Of a stretch of DNA of 34,921 nucleotides, positions 3,108 to 30,290 are shown one piece after another. This stretch comes from an uncultured Anaerovibrio sp. (lineage in GTDB: Bacteria > Bacillota > Negativicutes > Selenomonadales > Selenomonadaceae). A program made the translations under genes and the position numbers. The notes below the pieces were generated by a model. That model was not told where the DNA came from, did no database searches, and saw only the letters and a list, made by a program, of their open reading frames with translations. Each line of letters starts with the position of its first letter. The stretch's first letter is position 1. Location of the stretch: NCBI RefSeq assembly GCF_947302755.1, contig NZ_CAMYWM010000012.1, positions 1 through 34,921 of the forward strand, written 5' to 3'.

Positions 3108-4301
3108 ATGACTGATGAACAGATTTATGAAATGGATGCCCGGGATTATATGCCCGTCTTTGCCCGGTACAAGATTGTACTGGATCATGGTGATGGGGTA
3201 TATGTTTATGATACCCAGGGCAAGAAATATATTGATTTTTTAGGTGGTATTGCGGTAAATGTGCTGGGGCATAATCATCCCCAGCTGGTACAGGCTGTGG
3301 CTGAGCAGGCCGGGAAGCTGATACATTGCTCCAATCTGTACTATACCCAGGTGCAGGCTGATGCAGCGGAAAAGCTCACTAAATTAAGTGGCCTGGACAA
3401 GGTGTTTTTCGGCAATTCCGGGGCAGAGGCCAATGAGGGGGCCATAAAGCTGGCCCGCAAATATGCCCACAGTATTTCCGGGGATAAATCCCAGATTATT
3501 ACAGCACTTCACAGCTTTCATGGCCGGACCATTGCCACTTTGACGGCAACGGGGCAGACCAAATATCAGGAGGGCTTCGGCCCATTGCCTGAGGGCTTTG
3601 ATTATGTTCCATACAATGATATAGTTGCCCTTGAAAAGATGATGAGTGATAAGACCGCAGCAGTGATGCTGGAGCCTATTCAGGGCGAAGGCGGCGTGCA
3701 TGTTCCAGATGGTGCTTATTTAACCAAGGTCCGTGAGCTTTGTAATAAGTACAACGCCCTGCTGATATTTGATGAAATCCAGACAGGTATCGGTCGCAGC
3801 GGTAAATTCTTCACTTATGATAAATTTGGCGTTAAGCCGGATATTGTGACCCTGGCCAAGGGCTTGGCCGGTGGGGTGCCAATCGGTGCCTTTATTGCTT
3901 CTGACAAGGTGGCAGCCGTATTCCATGCCGGAGACCACGGCTCCACCTTCGGTGGCAATCCGCTGGCCTGTGCCGCGGCCAATGTAGTGCTTGATTTGGT
4001 GGGTGATGACAGGTTCCTCAATAAGGTAGATGCTATGGGGGAATACATGAAATCCCGCCTGGAGAAAATTCAGAAAAAATTCCCGGCTCTTATAAAAGAG
4101 GTGCGGGGCATGGGCCTGATTTTAGGCATGGAACTTACCAAGCCAGGCCGGGATATAGTGAATGCCTGCCTGGAAAAGGGGGCCATCATTAACTGTACTG
4201 CCGGCAATGTGTTGAGATTCGTGCCACCCCTTATTGTGACCAAGGAACATATTGATGAGGTGTGCGACATATTAGAGGGCGTATTACCTGATTTTGCATA
4301 A
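3108..4301 (+). CDS. argD: acetylornithine aminotransferase
   Basis: ArgD is a class-III PLP aminotransferase converting N-acetylglutamate semialdehyde to N-acetylornithine with glutamate as donor. The 397-residue product has the PLP phosphate motif GNSGAEANE (from residue 102), the cofactor aspartate in IFDEIQTGIGRSG (Asp222), and the Schiff-base lysine in TLAKGLAGGVPIGA (Lys251). The length fits ArgD rather than longer ornithine or GABA transaminases, and the cluster context supports it. The start is preceded by AAGGGGTG. The last ~60 bases of the gene are duplicated downstream at 4571-4632 as part of a ~332-bp tandem duplication, so a second, headless argD tail lies before argF. The intact gene is the first copy. 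Confidence 0.96.
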   Translation: MTDEQIYEMDARDYMPVFARYKIVLDHGDGVYVYDTQGKKYIDFLGGIAVNVLGHNHPQLVQAVAEQAGKLIHCSNLYYTQVQADAAEKLTKLSGLDKVFFGNSGAEANEGAIKLARKYAHSISGDKSQIITALHSFHGRTIATLTATGQTKYQEGFGPLPEGFDYVPYNDIVALEKMMSDKTAAVMLEPIQGEGGVHVPDGAYLTKVRELCNKYNALLIFDEIQTGIGRSGKFFTYDKFGVKPDIVTLAKGLAGGVPIGAFIASDKVAAVFHAGDHGSTFGGNPLACAAANVVLDLVGDDRFLNKVDAMGEYMKSRLEKIQKKFPALIKEVRGMGLILGMELTKPGRDIVNACLEKGAIINCTAGNVLRFVPPLIVTKEHIDEVCDILEGVLPDFA

Positions 4302-4307
4302 TATTAT

Positions 4308-4514
4308 GACAGTGAATGTTACCTCTCACGACGACTTCGTCGCTAAAACCATTTTTTTCGTTATTTAAATATCAGAAAAAATCATAACTCGCTTCGCCCT
4401 TGCAGGACTAGCTTCGCGTCGCTCAAACAAATGATTTTTTCAGCTAATGCAGGTATGAAAAAAATAGTTTCTTAACGCGTCTCAGTCTAAGTGTTCAAGG
4501 TAATCATTCACTGC
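4308..4514. repeat. MITE-like nested palindromic element, copy A
   Basis: The ends form an imperfect terminal inverted repeat, GACAGTGAATGTTACCT (4308-4324) against AAGGTAATCATTCACTG (4497-4513). Inside, a second inverted pair (AAAACCATTTTTTTCG and TGAAAAAAATAGTTT) and a third (GAAAAAATCAT and ATGATTTTTTC) are nested around a short GC-rich centre with CTCGCTTCG and AGCTTCGCGTCGC. The whole ~207 bp could fold into one long hairpin. No open reading frame of note lies in it. Confidence 0.8.
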
Positions 4515-4639
4515 CTTATTCCACGTAATCGGATGAAATATCCGAAAACTGTAGTGTAACAGGAATTGTTACCAAGGAACACATTGATGAGGTGTGCGAC
4601 ATATTAGAGGGCGTATTACCTGATTTTGCATAATATTAT

Positions 4640-4846
4640 GACAGTGAATGTTACCTCTCACGACGACTTCGTCGCTAAAACCATTTTTTTCGTTATTTAA
4701 ATATCAGAAAAAATCATAACTCGCTTCGCCCTTGCAGGACTAGCTTCGCGTCGCTCAAACAAATGATTTTTTCAGCTAATGCAGGTATGAAAAAAATAGT
4801 TTCTTAACGCGTCTCAGTCTAAGTGTTCAAGGTAATCATTCACTGC
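4640..4846. repeat. MITE-like nested palindromic element, copy B
   Basis: It is identical to copy A over the element itself and was produced by the 332-bp tandem duplication. It lies about 40 bases upstream of the presumed argF -10 box. Confidence 0.8.
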
Positions 4847-4887
4847 CTTATTCCACATAATCGGATGAAAATGCCAAGAAATTGTAG

Positions 4888-5901: not shown

Positions 5902-6083
5902 GACAGGAAATGATTTCCTTGAACAATTAGACTGCGAAACGTGTAGAAAATATTTTTTTATACCTGCATTAGCAAGAAAAATCATTTGTCTGAGCGTAAG
6001 CGAGTTATGATTTTTATTGCTATTGAAATCGATAAAAAATATTTTTAGTGATGCAGTCGATGTGAAAGGAAACATTTCCTGTC
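5902..6083. repeat. MITE-like nested palindromic element, copy C
   Basis: The ends GACAGGAAATGATTTCCTT (5902-5920) and AAAGGAAACATTTCCTGTC (6065-6083) are inverted repeats. Nested inside are GACTGC...GCAGTC, AAAATATTTTTTTAT...ATAAAAAATATTTTT and AAAAATCAT...ATGATTTTT. The inner part ATACCTGCATTAGC followed by AAATCATTTGTCTGAGCG is the reverse complement of the corresponding part of copies A and B, with the GC-rich centre shortened. It is therefore a diverged copy in the opposite orientation. It fills the argF-argG gap and may act as a transcription barrier or hairpin. Confidence 0.8.
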
Positions 6084-6116
6084 GAATGAAGAACATATAA
6101 AAAGGAGATAATGATT

Positions 6117-8804: not shown

Positions 8805-8829
8805 ATAGTGCGCCCGGCATGAGCGCATT

Positions 8830-8976
8830 ATAACGAGGTGAAGATGTCCCCCTCCTCTTTAGGTGGGGGTGAAAACAAACTTCAACAGGTGGTGAGCATA
8901 TCTCCCACCTCGTTGAAACGCTAATTGGAAGATTTTTCTTCTAAAGAAGAAAAATTTGAACAATGGCGTTATAACG
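8830..8976. repeat. composite hairpin repeat, module A plus module B (copy 1)
   Basis: Module A begins ATAACGAGGTG (8830-8840), holds a hairpin CCCCCTCCT/AGGTGGGGG (8848-8869), then AGGTGGTGAG (8887-8896) pairing with CTCCCACCT (8902-8910), and ends CACCTCGTTGAAACG. Module B (8911-8976) runs from CGTTGAAACGC to GCGTTATAACG around an ATTTTTCTTC/GAAGAAAAAT hairpin. A second copy of both modules lies at 14145-14288, and module B alone occurs twice at 10917-11058. The 327-base gap between argH and the next gene holds the terminator, this repeat and a promoter. Confidence 0.85.
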
Positions 8977-8996
8977 AGCCATTAGTATTTTCCCTG

Positions 8997-9025
8997 TTGA
9001 AAGTTTGAGGGCTTTAGATGATAAT
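8997..9025 (+). promoter_or_regulatory. putative sigma-A promoter of the GH13 gene
   Basis: TTGAAA (8997-9002), a 17-base spacer and GATAAT (9020-9025) stand about 60 bases before the ATG at 9088. Confidence 0.55.
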
Positions 9026-9087
9026 ATGGGTAATGATATAAATGATGTATGTTTTATCCTATGTAAAGAAACAGGGGAGCAGCTATT

Positions 9088-10851
9088 ATGAAACAGGGTA
9101 TTGATATGTTTTCTTTTTGGAGCATTATCGTTTTGGTCTGTGTATGTGAATTTTTTGTTGCGTCGGCTGCCTCAGCCCAGGACCATGGGAAAAAGGATTT
9201 AAAATGGTGGCAGAAGACTACGGTGTACCAGATTTATCCAAGGAGCTTTGCGGATACCACAGGTAATGGCATTGGTGATCTTGCTGGTATTACCAATCAT
9301 TTGGAGCATATACAGCAATTAGGCGTGGGAGCCATTTGGCTTACGCCAATATATCCGTCACCGATGGTCGATAACGGCTACGATATTGCTGACTATAAGG
9401 CTGTTGATCCTTTATATGGAACAATGGAGGATTTTGACCGATTGACAGCCGAGGCGAAAAAGCGTGATATCCGCATTGTAATGGATTTGGTGTTTAATCA
9501 CAGCTCTGATCAACATGAATGGTTTCAGGAATCAAGAAAAAGTCGTACTAATCCTAAGGCAGATTGGTATATTTGGCGGGACGCCAAGCCGGATGGCAGT
9601 GCACCAACTAACTGGCGCAGCTTTTTCGGCGGAAGTGCCTGGACCTGGTGTGAGGAACGTGGCCAATATTATCTTCATACCTTCGCTGCCCAACAGCCTG
9701 ACCTTAATTGGGAGAATCCTGAGGTCAGACATGCACTGTATGCAGCTGCCCAATTTTGGCTGGATAAAGGTGTTGGCGGCTTCCGGATTGACGCCATTCC
9801 TTATATTAAAAAGCCAGTCTTCCAGGATGGTACACCAGATGGTGCAGACGGTATGGTAAGTATTCATAAAATGACTGCTAATACCCCGGGAATTTTAGAT
9901 TTTCTCCATGAATTTAAAAATGAGGTATTTGTGGGACGGGATATTTTCACTGTAGGTGAAGCAAATGGTGTACAGCCCAAGGATTTGCCACAATGGGTAG
10001 GCGATGATGGGGTATTTGATATGGTGTTTGAGTTTAGCCACTTGAATCTTAGCCTTAAAAATGGCGAAATATGGCATCGGCCCACCTCATGGACACTGCA
10101 AGAGCTGAAATCCGCTCTGTCAGCTACTCAGGAAGTCACCAAGGACAATGGCTGGTGCCCGGTCTTTTTTGAAAATCATGATCAGCCCCGTTGTGTCAAT
10201 CATTTTTTCCCGGTTACGGCCAATCAGGATAAGGCTGCCAAGGTTATTGCAGCTGTGCTGCTGACTTTACGGGGAACGCCGTTTATCTATCAGGGACAGG
10301 AGCTGGGCTATTCCAATGTTGCGTGGTCATCTATAGAGGAATATGATGATATTTCCTCCCATGGACAATACCAAAATGCCTTGCAGGAGGGCTTCTCCAA
10401 CGAACAGGCTATGGATTTCGTTCATTTTTTTAGTCGGGATAACGCCAGAACACCAATGCAATGGGATAATAGTAAAAATGCGGGGTTCACCACTGTAAAG
10501 CCATGGTTGCCCATTCATGATGATTACGCTCAGCAAAATGTCGCGTTCCAGGAGCAGGATGAGACCTCTGTGCTCAAATGGTATCATCGCCTGGCTGAAT
10601 TTCGTAAAACTAATCCAGCGTTGACCGAAGGGGACTATGAGGTGCTTTTGCCGGATGATGAGCAAATTTTTGCCTTTACGCGCACCTCGGCTAAGCAACA
10701 GCTTACGACTATAGCGAATTTTTCCACGGAAGCTGTAAGGATTCCGAGGGAAGCCGTTTCTGGCAAGAGAGTGGTATTAAGCAGTGAAGATAATCCAGAT
10801 GAGATGCAGCTTAAGCCATTGGAAGCCCGTATTTATGAAAGGGTGAATTGA
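9088..10851 (+). CDS. exported GH13 alpha-glucosidase (oligo-1,6-glucosidase type)
   Basis: A glycoside hydrolase family 13 enzyme that probably releases glucose from short alpha-glucosides. A signal peptide is visible: hydrophobic core about residues 11-24, likely cleavage after ASA (residue 30). The mature part begins near KWWQKTTVYQIYPRSF, the usual start of cytosolic oligo-1,6-glucosidases. Conserved GH13 regions are DLVFNHSSDQHEWF, GFRIDAI with nucleophile Asp235, TVGEANG with acid/base Glu291, and FFENHDQPR with Asp365. QPDLNWENP and ARTPMQWD are typical of the alpha-glucosidase branch. The 587-residue length equals the usual catalytic unit plus leader. It has its own promoter and terminator. 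Substrate (isomaltose, trehalose-6-phosphate, sucrose) cannot be fixed; export argues against a phosphorylated substrate. Confidence 0.88.
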   Translation: MKQGIDMFSFWSIIVLVCVCEFFVASAASAQDHGKKDLKWWQKTTVYQIYPRSFADTTGNGIGDLAGITNHLEHIQQLGVGAIWLTPIYPSPMVDNGYDIADYKAVDPLYGTMEDFDRLTAEAKKRDIRIVMDLVFNHSSDQHEWFQESRKSRTNPKADWYIWRDAKPDGSAPTNWRSFFGGSAWTWCEERGQYYLHTFAAQQPDLNWENPEVRHALYAAAQFWLDKGVGGFRIDAIPYIKKPVFQDGTPDGADGMVSIHKMTANTPGILDFLHEFKNEVFVGRDIFTVGEANGVQPKDLPQWVGDDGVFDMVFEFSHLNLSLKNGEIWHRPTSWTLQELKSALSATQEVTKDNGWCPVFFENHDQPRCVNHFFPVTANQDKAAKVIAAVLLTLRGTPFIYQGQELGYSNVAWSSIEEYDDISSHGQYQNALQEGFSNEQAMDFVHFFSRDNARTPMQWDNSKNAGFTTVKPWLPIHDDYAQQNVAFQEQDETSVLKWYHRLAEFRKTNPALTEGDYEVLLPDDEQIFAFTRTSAKQQLTTIANFSTEAVRIPREAVSGKRVVLSSEDNPDEMQLKPLEARIYERVN

Positions 10852-10856
10852 TTAAG

Positions 10857-10888
10857 GCCCGTCAGTATTTCAGTATACTGGCGGGCTA
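10857..10888 (+). terminator. hairpin terminator after the GH13 gene
   Basis: The stem GCCCGTCAGTAT / ATACTGGCGGGC has one mismatch and is followed only by a weak TATT tract, so its efficiency is uncertain. Confidence 0.6.
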
Positions 10889-10916
10889 TTGAGGTGAAAG
10901 GCTGTTATGGTTGTTG

Positions 10917-10982
10917 CGTTGAAACGCTAATAAGGAATATTTTCCATTAAAATGGAAAATATTGAACAATTGCGTTATAACG
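10917..10982. repeat. module-B hairpin repeat, copy 2
   Basis: It runs CGTTGAAACGC ... GCGTTATAACG. The inner hairpin is AATATTTTCCATT / AATGGAAAATATT, so the stem tip differs from copies 1 and 4 while pairing is kept. Confidence 0.85.
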
Positions 10983-10997
10983 CTCTTATCATTGCTG

Positions 10998-11058
10998 CGT
11001 TGAAACGCTTATAAGGTATATTTTGCCGGTGGCAAAATTTGAACATCTGCGTTATAAT
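10998..11058. repeat. module-B hairpin repeat, copy 3
   Basis: It runs CGTTGAAACGC ... GCGTTATAAT with the inner hairpin TATTTTGCC / GGCAAAATTT. Its right end creates a TATAAT (11053-11058) that could serve as a -10 box for the following small membrane-protein gene, although no good -35 is present. Confidence 0.85.
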
Positions 11059-11117
11059 TACATAGTATCTGTGTTCGTGATGGGCATGGGATTATCTTGT
11101 TTGTTTGGAGGTTGCTT

Positions 11118-11300
11118 ATGAAGATAGACGGGATGAATAAATCCGATTGGCTTATGCTGGTGCTTATTGTGGCAGTAATGGCCTTGACTGATTTCAGTAA
11201 TTTACAGACTATTGATTATGTGCTTATAGTCAGTGTAATTGCCTGGGTGATTATGCTGGGTATCAGATTGTATGTGGTAAATGTGCGTAATAAACGGTGA
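11118..11300 (+). CDS. small two-helix membrane protein
   Basis: A 60-residue product with two hydrophobic segments, about residues 11-25 (WLMLVLIVAVMAL) and 34-52 (VLIVSVIAWVIMLGIRL), and a basic C-terminus VNVRNKR. The start at ATG 11118 follows GGAGG (11107-11111) by six bases; the longer frame from TTG 11097 would run through that site. The stop lies 13 bases before the ATG of the next gene, suggesting the first gene of an envelope operon. I do not recognise the family. The real ribosome binding site and operon position make it a likely true gene rather than a chance frame. Confidence 0.7.
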   Translation: MKIDGMNKSDWLMLVLIVAVMALTDFSNLQTIDYVLIVSVIAWVIMLGIRLYVVNVRNKR

Positions 11301-11313
11301 GGTGGATGTGAAC

Positions 11314-14144: not shown

Positions 14145-14288
14145 ATAACGAGCTTTAAGATGTCCCCCACCTCTTTAGGTGGGGGAAAATAAACTACAAC
14201 AGCTGGCGAGCATATCTCCCAGCTCGTTGAAACGCTAATTGGAAGATTTTTCTTCTAAAGAAGAAAAATTTGAACAATGGCGTTATAA
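14145..14288. repeat. composite hairpin repeat, module A plus module B (copy 4)
   Basis: It has the same layout as the copy at 8830-8976: ATAACGAGCT (14145-14154), hairpin CCCCCACCT/AGGTGGGGG (14164-14185), AGCTGGCGAG (14201-14210) with CTCCCAGCT (14216-14224), then CGTTGAAACGC ... GCGTTATAA (14225-14288). Where copy 1 has GGTGG/CCACC this copy has GCTGG/CCAGC, so pairing is preserved. The 336-base gap to the next gene holds this repeat, a terminator and a possible promoter. Confidence 0.85.
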
Positions 14289-20608: not shown

Positions 20609-20637
20609 CTCCCGTCCTATTTTGGGCGGGAGTTTTA
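20609..20637 (+). terminator. second terminator-like hairpin downstream of the T-box
   Basis: Stem CTCCCG / CGGGAG with inner CC/GG pairs and a short loop, followed by TTTTAT. It does not overlap the T-box antiterminator, so T-box control alone would not prevent it from forming. Confidence 0.6.
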
Positions 20638-20640
20638 TAC

Positions 20641-20735
20641 TATGAAATCTTAGTGAGTCAAATCCGAAGGATGCAGATGAGCTTTAGATTTCGTGTAAGG
20701 GCGTGTGGACACCGTCAGGTGTCCAGTAAGTTTAC
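20641..20735. repeat. 95-bp structured repeat, unit 1
   Basis: It runs TATGAAATCTTAGTGAG to AGTTTAC. Stem 1 is GAAATCT / AGATTTC with inner hairpin ATCC-GAA-GGAT, then the constant GTAAGGGCGT, then hairpin GGACACC-GTCA-GGTGTCC. It abuts unit 2 head to tail. Confidence 0.85.
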
Positions 20736-20830
20736 TATGAACACTTAGTGAGCACAAGCCTACGGCGCAGTGGGAACTTAGTGTTCGTTGTAAGGGCGTA
20801 GTGCGAAATAACGTTTCGCACGGAGTTTAT
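20736..20830. repeat. 95-bp structured repeat, unit 2
   Basis: It has the same layout and length as unit 1 but different stems: GAACACT / AGTGTTC, GCC-TAC-GGC, and GTGCGAAA / TTTCGCAC. Constant parts are TATGAA, CTTAGTGAG, TTCGTTGTAAGGGCGT and AGTTTA. It ends 28 bases before the ileS ribosome binding site. The 587-base gap between the exonuclease gene and ileS is fully accounted for by promoter, T-box, hairpin and these two units. Confidence 0.85.
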
Positions 20831-30154: not shown

Positions 30155-30195
30155 AAAGCCAGTGAGAAGCAATTTGTCTCTCACTGGCTTTTTAT
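30155..30195. terminator. bidirectional terminator after glcF
   Basis: Stem AAAGCCAGTGAGA / TCTCACTGGCTTT with a nine-base loop, followed by TTTATT; the A-rich left arm serves the convergent metallophosphoesterase gene. Confidence 0.9.
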
Positions 30196-30290
30196 TATGA
30201 AATCTTAGTAAATCAAATCCGAAGGATGCAGATGAGCTTTAGATTTCGTTGTAAGGGCGTAGTGCGAAATAACGTTTCGCACGGAGTTTT
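30196..30290. repeat. 95-bp structured repeat, unit 3
   Basis: It lies directly after the glcF terminator. The left half matches unit 1 (GAAATCT / AGATTTC, ATCC-GAA-GGAT) and the right half matches unit 2 (GTGCGAAA / TTTCGCAC), so it looks like a mosaic of the two units before ileS, about 9.5 kb away. Confidence 0.85.

Follow-up and report, generated by a model that had tools for sequence, protein, structure and literature searches.

The window, by which is meant the whole 34,921-nt stretch of DNA analysed here, comes from a 2.66-Mb Anaerovibrio genome (Selenomonadaceae, Negativicutes) and carries a hairpin repeat, module B, at 8911-8976, 10917-10982, 10998-11058 and 14225-14288, the positions at which a sequence-only reading of this DNA had placed it. 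The borders CGTTGAAACGC and GCGTTATAA are present at all four copies, and the differing hairpin tips described in that reading (CTTC/GAAG, CCATT/AATGG and GCC/GGC) are real. A covariance-model search, which the same reading had proposed, recovered 4 of 4 copies when seeded with 32 diverse module-B sequences, window copies among them, and found exactly four plus-strand module-B copies in the window (62.8-79.6 bits, E 5e-13 to 4e-17). Only three distinct sequences are present in the window, as the 8911 and 14225 copies do not differ over 64 nt. Chance is excluded as the origin of module B by the 27 occurrences of the bordered pattern in the window's genome, compared with 0 for a reversed-pattern control, and by the RNA folding of the full window copies (z = -6.6 for copy 1 and -9.1 for copy 3).

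When 8825-8990 was compared with its own genome by BLAST, approximately 20 copies aligned over ~146 nt, together with many partial ones, so that the repeat unit must be larger than module B. The sequence-only reading had overlooked module A, which lies in the same unit as module B (8832-8914 and 14147-14228), the tandem pair with shortened module A at 10898-11053, and the dispersal of the A+B unit through the genome and across the family. Module B is very probably the right half of a short non-autonomous (gene-less) mobile element built of two adjacent hairpin modules. The element is usually ~140 nt long and has the form AT|AACGAG–module A–CTCGTT–GA–AACGC–module B–GCGTT|AT. Its copies and parts in the window are as follows.

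8832..8970, plus strand: full-length element copy 1 (module A, GA linker and module B), from length-wise alignment to ~20 genome copies, with boundaries from filled and empty sites in relatives.
8832..8914, plus strand: module A of copy 1 (fold z -6.6; outer stem covaries among variants), with hairpin H1 CCCCCTCC/GGTGGGGG and hairpin H2 AACAGGTGG..CCACCTCGTT; an alternative pairing of its 5' end AACGAGGT with ACCTCGTT is possible.
8915..8916, plus strand: GA linker at the A/B boundary, the centre of GTTGAAAC, invariant in 32 aligned module-B sequences.
8917..8970, plus strand: module B of copy 1, AACGC..GCGTT with an apical hairpin (cmsearch 79.4 bits; covariation).
8971..8972, plus strand: AT at the right junction of copy 1 (flank logo, filled/empty comparison); its left-junction counterpart is the AT at 8830-8831.
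10898..10976, plus strand: tandem short copy 2a, with a decayed short module A (10898-10920), GA and module B (10923-10976; cmsearch 74.8 bits).
10977-10978: single AT between tandem copies 2a and 2b.
10979..11053, plus strand: tandem short copy 2b, with a 23-nt module A hairpin AACGCTCTTATCATTGCTGCGTT (10979-11001), GA and module B (11004-11053), from cmsearch (62.8 bits) and sequence.
14147..14284, plus strand: full-length copy 3, with module A (14147-14228), GA and module B (14231-14284; fold z -9.1; cmsearch 79.6 bits), absent from the orthologous site in relatives.

The assignment of copy 2a is underlain by an in-register repeat (10888-10943 and 10969-11024). Directly after copy 1, the stretch AACGAGCC..CCTGTTGAAAG at 8973-9003 resembles the decayed module A of a former tandem copy.

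The usual module A consists of two hairpins, CCCCCACC/GGTGGGGG and AACAGCTGG/CCAGCTCGTT, and recurs in Selenomonas and related genera. Its short versions are plain hairpins of 23-31 nt in which the only common letters are AAC..GTT, with the variants AACGAGGTGTGG../..CCACACCTCGTT, AACTCGA../..TCGAGTT, AACAAGG../..CCTTGTT and AACGCTC../..GCTGCGTT. Further variation is seen at L022, L023, L024, L315, L318 and L278, where some copies have one or two ~26-nt units (GCGACGCGAAGCTAGTCCTTTAGGGA) in place of the GA linker and others have a 100-nt GTGCGGACGTATC.. insert inside module A. At L191 (1-400, G002), the apical hairpin of module B is precisely deleted (AACGCTGAACAATGGCGTTATAA).

The suggestion that both arms of module B change together was upheld by covariation and by arm-swap folding. 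Among 32 distinct module-B sequences, 90.1% of cells pair, compared with a shuffled mean of 82.6%; pairing was counted on one register, and the value is an underestimate since some Selenomonas-type copies are shifted by one base. Both sides are changed in 28 cells, against 9.2 in shuffles, and the covariation score of 0.206 (0.088 shuffled) was reached by 0 of 500 shuffles. Native pairs of arms fold at a mean of -20.1 kcal/mol and mixed pairs at -13.4, an average swap cost of 6.7 kcal/mol. Covariation involves both helices of the module, with base variants AACGC/GCGTT, AAGGC/GCCTT and AACGT/ACGTT and apical stem variants GATTTTTC/GAAAAATT, GATTTTGCC/GGCAAAATT, AGCTTTGTC/GACAAAGCT and GGTTTTCC/GGAAAACTT. 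Outside the helices, the 5' side keeps mostly GG(A)AG and the 3' side GAACAATGG, and GTTGA ahead of the module and AT AA behind it are also constant. Most of 35 end combinations allow the outer stem of module A to pair, compensatory types included, a count that leans towards pairing because the left end was chosen partly by stem score. The covariation of stems in both modules indicates that the hairpins are under structural constraint and, as far as aligned sequences can tell, the structure of the element is selected, whether it acts as DNA or as RNA.

The conserved linkers TATAAC and TTGAAA, previously read as protein or polymerase contact sites, have a different origin. TATAAC is the insertion junction, composed of host target plus the first bases of the element, and TTGAAA is the boundary of modules A and B (GTT-GA-AAC). 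The two boxes look promoter-like, but the gap from TTGAAC to TATAAC is 8 nt (from sequence), which is the wrong spacing for a promoter. The TATAAT at 11053-11058 is a special case, as relatives have retained it together with a conserved leader ahead of the same small ORF, both preceded by a decayed module-B-like sequence. Here an old copy of the element may have become part of the promoter region of the small ORF. In the window, the leader and the small ORF (start at 11119) occupy 11053-11301, downstream of the tandem copies.

Boundaries of the element were mapped by comparing the flanks of 22 copies from two A. lipolyticus genomes with relatives lacking the copy, which gave approximately ten readable pairs. 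These filled and empty sites place insertion precisely between T and A of a host (T/A)AT|AA, with a TATAA-like sequence at both junctions. In five pairs (L130/L164, L129/L137, L127/L166, L124/L163 and L112/L172), the host pentamer TATAA occurs once in the empty site; in element orientation, the filled site of L130/L164 reads CTAC-TAT|AACGAG..GCGTT-AT|AATCACTC and the empty site CTAC-TATAA-TC(T)CTC. Three others (L113/L167, L121/L162 and L128/L143) have host AATAA on the left and TTAT at the right end of the element, and L075/L170 has a host TATCA site, with TATAACGAG at the left and GCGTTATCA at the right. The AT|AA parse, in which the element is AACGAG..GCGTT with AT on both sides, is adopted as the only one that fits TATAA, AATAA and TATCA sites alike. 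A TA duplication of the IS630 type was ruled out by the AATAA host sites. The extra AT is compatible with a 2-bp duplication or with one end after a T|A single-strand cut, and the sequence fits both. The flank logo is in agreement, with T at -3 in 93% and AT in 100% on the left, and AT in 100% followed by A in 94% and A in 98% on the right, and with near-random composition farther out. A later logo with more loci is partly biased by the inclusion of loci selected with a TATAA-containing pattern.

Four genomes lack copy 3 at the orthologous site: A. lipolyticus DSM 3074 (G007), JC8 (G012), RM50 (G013) and A. lipolyticus LB2005 (G015). In RM50 regions, 37 of 38 full-length copies fall into two near-identical groups and 20 have an identical sibling. 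The family is real, structured and recently active, and it very probably represents a mobile element with a (T/A)AT|AA insertion rule. None of 62 checked copies in RM50 and JC8 lies inside an ORF of at least 90 aa. Head-to-tail chains with a single AT between copies are present at 10898-11053 and at L057, L262, L376 and L404; each junction regenerates TATAA and so offers a neighbouring landing site for a further copy, which would explain such chains. Of the 62 RM50 and JC8 copies, 45 have their top strand on the G-rich (leading) side and 17 do not (p = 5e-4); in a wider set the split is 115 to 49. This bias is suggestive of a single-strand route but does not prove one, because the direction of genes runs almost parallel to skew (r = 0.90) and the bias, strong in one recent RM50 subfamily (14 to 2), is not so in the other (10 to 8).

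At least 28 module-B copies lie in the window's genome, where BLAST gave 79 matches (full, partial and self-complementary), and nine other genomes of the genus have at least 20 BLAST matches, all copy counts being lower bounds. By covariance model, the element is present in 65 of 189 genomes of the order (16 of 30 genera), all of them in a single family of gut and rumen bacteria, and it can reach dozens of copies in a genome; BLAST also gave six matches with the same architecture in a genome of the class that belongs to another family (L066, L080). It is absent by the same model from 6 of 16 Anaerovibrio genomes (G001, G003, G005, G006, G011 and G014), of which G003 has one divergent BLAST match (L069). 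In plasmid and phage collections, one 70% copy was found on the Selenomonas ruminantium plasmid pSRC1, along with a short chance-like match in Borreliella; phage records held no similar DNA and IMG/VR no exact-pattern match. Rfam gave no match at the gathering score and nothing relevant up to E = 5, and no description of the repeat in Selenomonadaceae was found in the open-access literature.

The search for a mobilising enzyme was negative, in that the distribution of the element is not matched by that of Y1 (IS200/RAYT), TnpB, IS110, serine recombinase or reverse transcriptase profiles. The IS110 transposase domain (PF02371), for example, is absent in G000, G009, G010, G012, G013 and G015. 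Decayed ends of a known insertion sequence had been named in the sequence-only reading as an observation that would count against it; none of the copies seen with these ends bears an ORF, and among full and partial matches in G000, G012, G013 and Selenomonas loci there is no ORF flanked by module ends that would make an autonomous copy. Two candidates were rejected because their ends are unrelated to the element: in G007 a truncated Y1 gene joined to a phage-like ORF, and in G002 a Y1 fragment close to a decayed module B. A scan of 780 kb of RM50 and JC8 sequence for repeated genes gave one transposase-like pair, IS3-like by eye, in addition to overlaps among the regions compared. IS605-type TnpA/TnpB genes are almost confined to Anaerovibrio without or nearly without the repeat (G001, G003, G005, G006 and G014), possibly because those genomes form one clade.

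In the mechanism envisaged here, an enzyme supplied in trans would recognise the folded unit, chiefly through what is constant in module B, namely its base AACGC/GCGTT, the AT|AA junctions and two unpaired stretches, GGAAG and GAACAATGG. After a cut between T and A, it would paste the element and join the element's ends to AT|AA sites; the substrate may be single-stranded DNA that becomes exposed on the template of the lagging strand. A symmetric double-strand cut fits less well with the structure and with the asymmetry of the target than does recognition of a single strand or an oriented site, and a single-strand mechanism has a somewhat less than even chance of being correct. It is a rather speculative proposal that the mover is an enzyme type new to small bacterial repeats, which would read folded DNA or RNA, cut T|A in TATAA and need the shape of module A but not its sequence.

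Among known ways of moving such a unit, single-strand transposition of an IS200/IS605-type or REP/RAYT derivative, in which a Y1 (HUH) transposase binds the LE/RE hairpins, makes single-strand cuts and inserts 3' of a fixed short target, would account for the subterminal hairpins, the absence of an unambiguous target duplication, the asymmetric short target and the suggestive leading-strand orientation bias. IS605 in G006 and G014 also has a similar left-end hairpin (AGAAGTCCCCCACCTCTTAGGTGGGGGA) at a comparable distance from the end, and IS605 right ends bear a CTCGTTGAAGCAGGAAGC-hairpin like CTCGTTGAAAC..GGAAG; these local resemblances, to the first module-A hairpin and to the GTTGAA..GGAAG-hairpin, are taken as a lead only. 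The REP-type transposase for which the sequence-only reading had proposed a search did not appear, however, as a profile search detected no Y1 transposase/RAYT domain (Y1_Tnp, PF01797) in five genomes with many copies (G008, G010, G012, G013 and G015), and intact Y1 and TnpB genes are mainly in genomes without the element. No GTAG guide adjoins the hairpin foot or occurs in the invariant positions of module B, and the host AA 3' of the cut is conserved too, which is not known for IS608. This origin is considered unlikely. Similarly low probability attaches to a classical MITE whose mover is a DDE transposase that duplicates a 2-bp AT target: AT is found once in empty and twice in filled sites and there is a short terminal inverted repeat (ATAACG/CGTTAT), but the ends have just 6 bp in common, and matching transposase-binding repeats are thus lacking. 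Nor is the target (T/A)AT|AA symmetric (+4 A in 98% versus -4 T in 45%), in contrast to that of a symmetric DDE dimer; a TA duplication is excluded by AATAA sites, and no DDE element of full length was seen to have such ends.

A site-specific recombinase (tyrosine or serine, perhaps host Xer-like) that exchanges circular copies, with the joint CGTT-AT-AACG, with TATAA sites, as suggested for bcr1, is a reading to which about one chance in several might be given. AT|AA is common to the left junction, the right junction and the target, the joined ends would give a perfect 10-bp palindrome, and tyrosine recombinases are universal, so that their presence or absence is uninformative. Against this, a 5-bp target is short for a recombinase, and the serine recombinase domain PF00239 was undetected in G010 (83% complete) and its presence does not track the element. 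Retention for a host function as a cis-acting regulatory RNA (terminator, attenuator or mRNA-stability structure) would agree with the strong folding, the intergenic location and the more frequent co-direction with genes, and the copy at 10979-11053 may be exapted, its counterpart in relatives being a related sequence that ends in TATAAT and likewise precedes the small ORF. Such a role is nevertheless improbable for the family, given that close relatives carry different copies, that neighbouring genes may also be convergent or divergent, and that gain occurs at TATAA sites. The RNA-like conserved fold and some 5'-truncated copies could also suggest a retrotransposed small RNA, mobilised in trans by a group II intron or a retron-like reverse transcriptase. 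This reading is largely refuted and hardly credible, with no RVT_1 (PF00078) in G000, G004, G009, G010, G012, G015, G017, G018, G021 and G040 and with truncations at either end (L316, L313). Target-primed reverse transcription, at which the 5'-truncated copies hinted, was set aside because the search favoured intact right ends and a 3'-truncated copy exists.

The family is of a known general kind, nearest in kind to bcr1 of Bacillus cereus and nearest in modular make-up to BOX. bcr1, present in the B. cereus group at tens of copies per genome, is a folded, intergenic repeat of ~150 nt with TTTAT-tied insertion, for which a mechanism like site-specific recombination has been proposed (PMC6542083, PMC3446304). 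The present element is alike in its approximate length, high copy number, folding, intergenic location and AT-rich 5-base insertion motif, but is set apart from bcr1 as described by its host class, by its flanking motif (TATAA instead of TTTAT) and by a two-module architecture with a freely changing module A. BOX of Streptococcus pneumoniae is a composite of modules in which two end modules can enclose a tandem internal unit (PMC3049150), similar to the 0-2 copies of GCGACGCGAAGCTAGTCC.. between modules A and B, whereas its ends, its host and its proposed ISSpn2 link, which has no counterpart here, differ. Like non-autonomous IS200/IS605 derivatives and REP/RAYT (single-strand transposition features from PMC6006769), the element has subterminal hairpins, a short asymmetric target, no unambiguous duplication and a suggestive bias towards the lagging-strand template; unlike them, it occurs in several carriers without Y1, has no GTAG guide and has conserved target bases 3' of the cut. 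Membership of these groups is not claimed, since the expected association with Y1 was tested and did not hold.

With classical MITEs (RUP, Correia, ERIC) the element shares being short, AT-rich, gene-less, intergenic and folded, and as a short gene-less dispersed element gained at defined sites it fits the broad sense of MITE in this respect. It differs from them in a terminal repeat of only 6 bp, a target of AT|AA and not TA, and the failure to find a parent insertion sequence: the ends share ATAACG/CGTTAT only, with no long terminal inverted repeats matching one, and no ORF-bearing copy with such ends occurs in G000, G012 and G013. Structured small repeats like bcr1 are without an established mobiliser in the literature cited here. 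The present family makes the question testable, as it offers recent copies, a sharp insertion rule, a family-wide alignment and sister genomes without the element, and carriers include the sequenced isolates A. lipolyticus DSM 3074 and LB2005 and Anaerovibrio RM50 and JC8. Hairpins of this type are best read as mobile insertions first and as regulatory RNAs second.

Other repeats are present in the window. A 300-nt direct duplication with 99% identity (4233-4532 and 4565-4864) lies ahead of an ornithine carbamoyltransferase gene, with inverted relatives at 5947-6086, and contains GCAGGACTAGCTTCGCGTCGC, the reverse complement of the extra unit inside longer element copies. A 38-nt tandem array (AATGCGGAATTTAGATTAATGCGGAATTAGGAATTCGG) is found at 746-782 and 1979-2206, and a related stretch is located beside an element copy on G000 contig C71 (L316). 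A second structured dispersed repeat (GAAATCTTAGT..GGATGCAGATGAGC..TTGTAAGGGCGTAGTGCGAAATAACGTTTCGCAC) occurs at 20634-20828 and 30189-30289; one copy, which has an extra related unit inside, lies directly 5' of an isoleucyl-tRNA synthetase-like gene.
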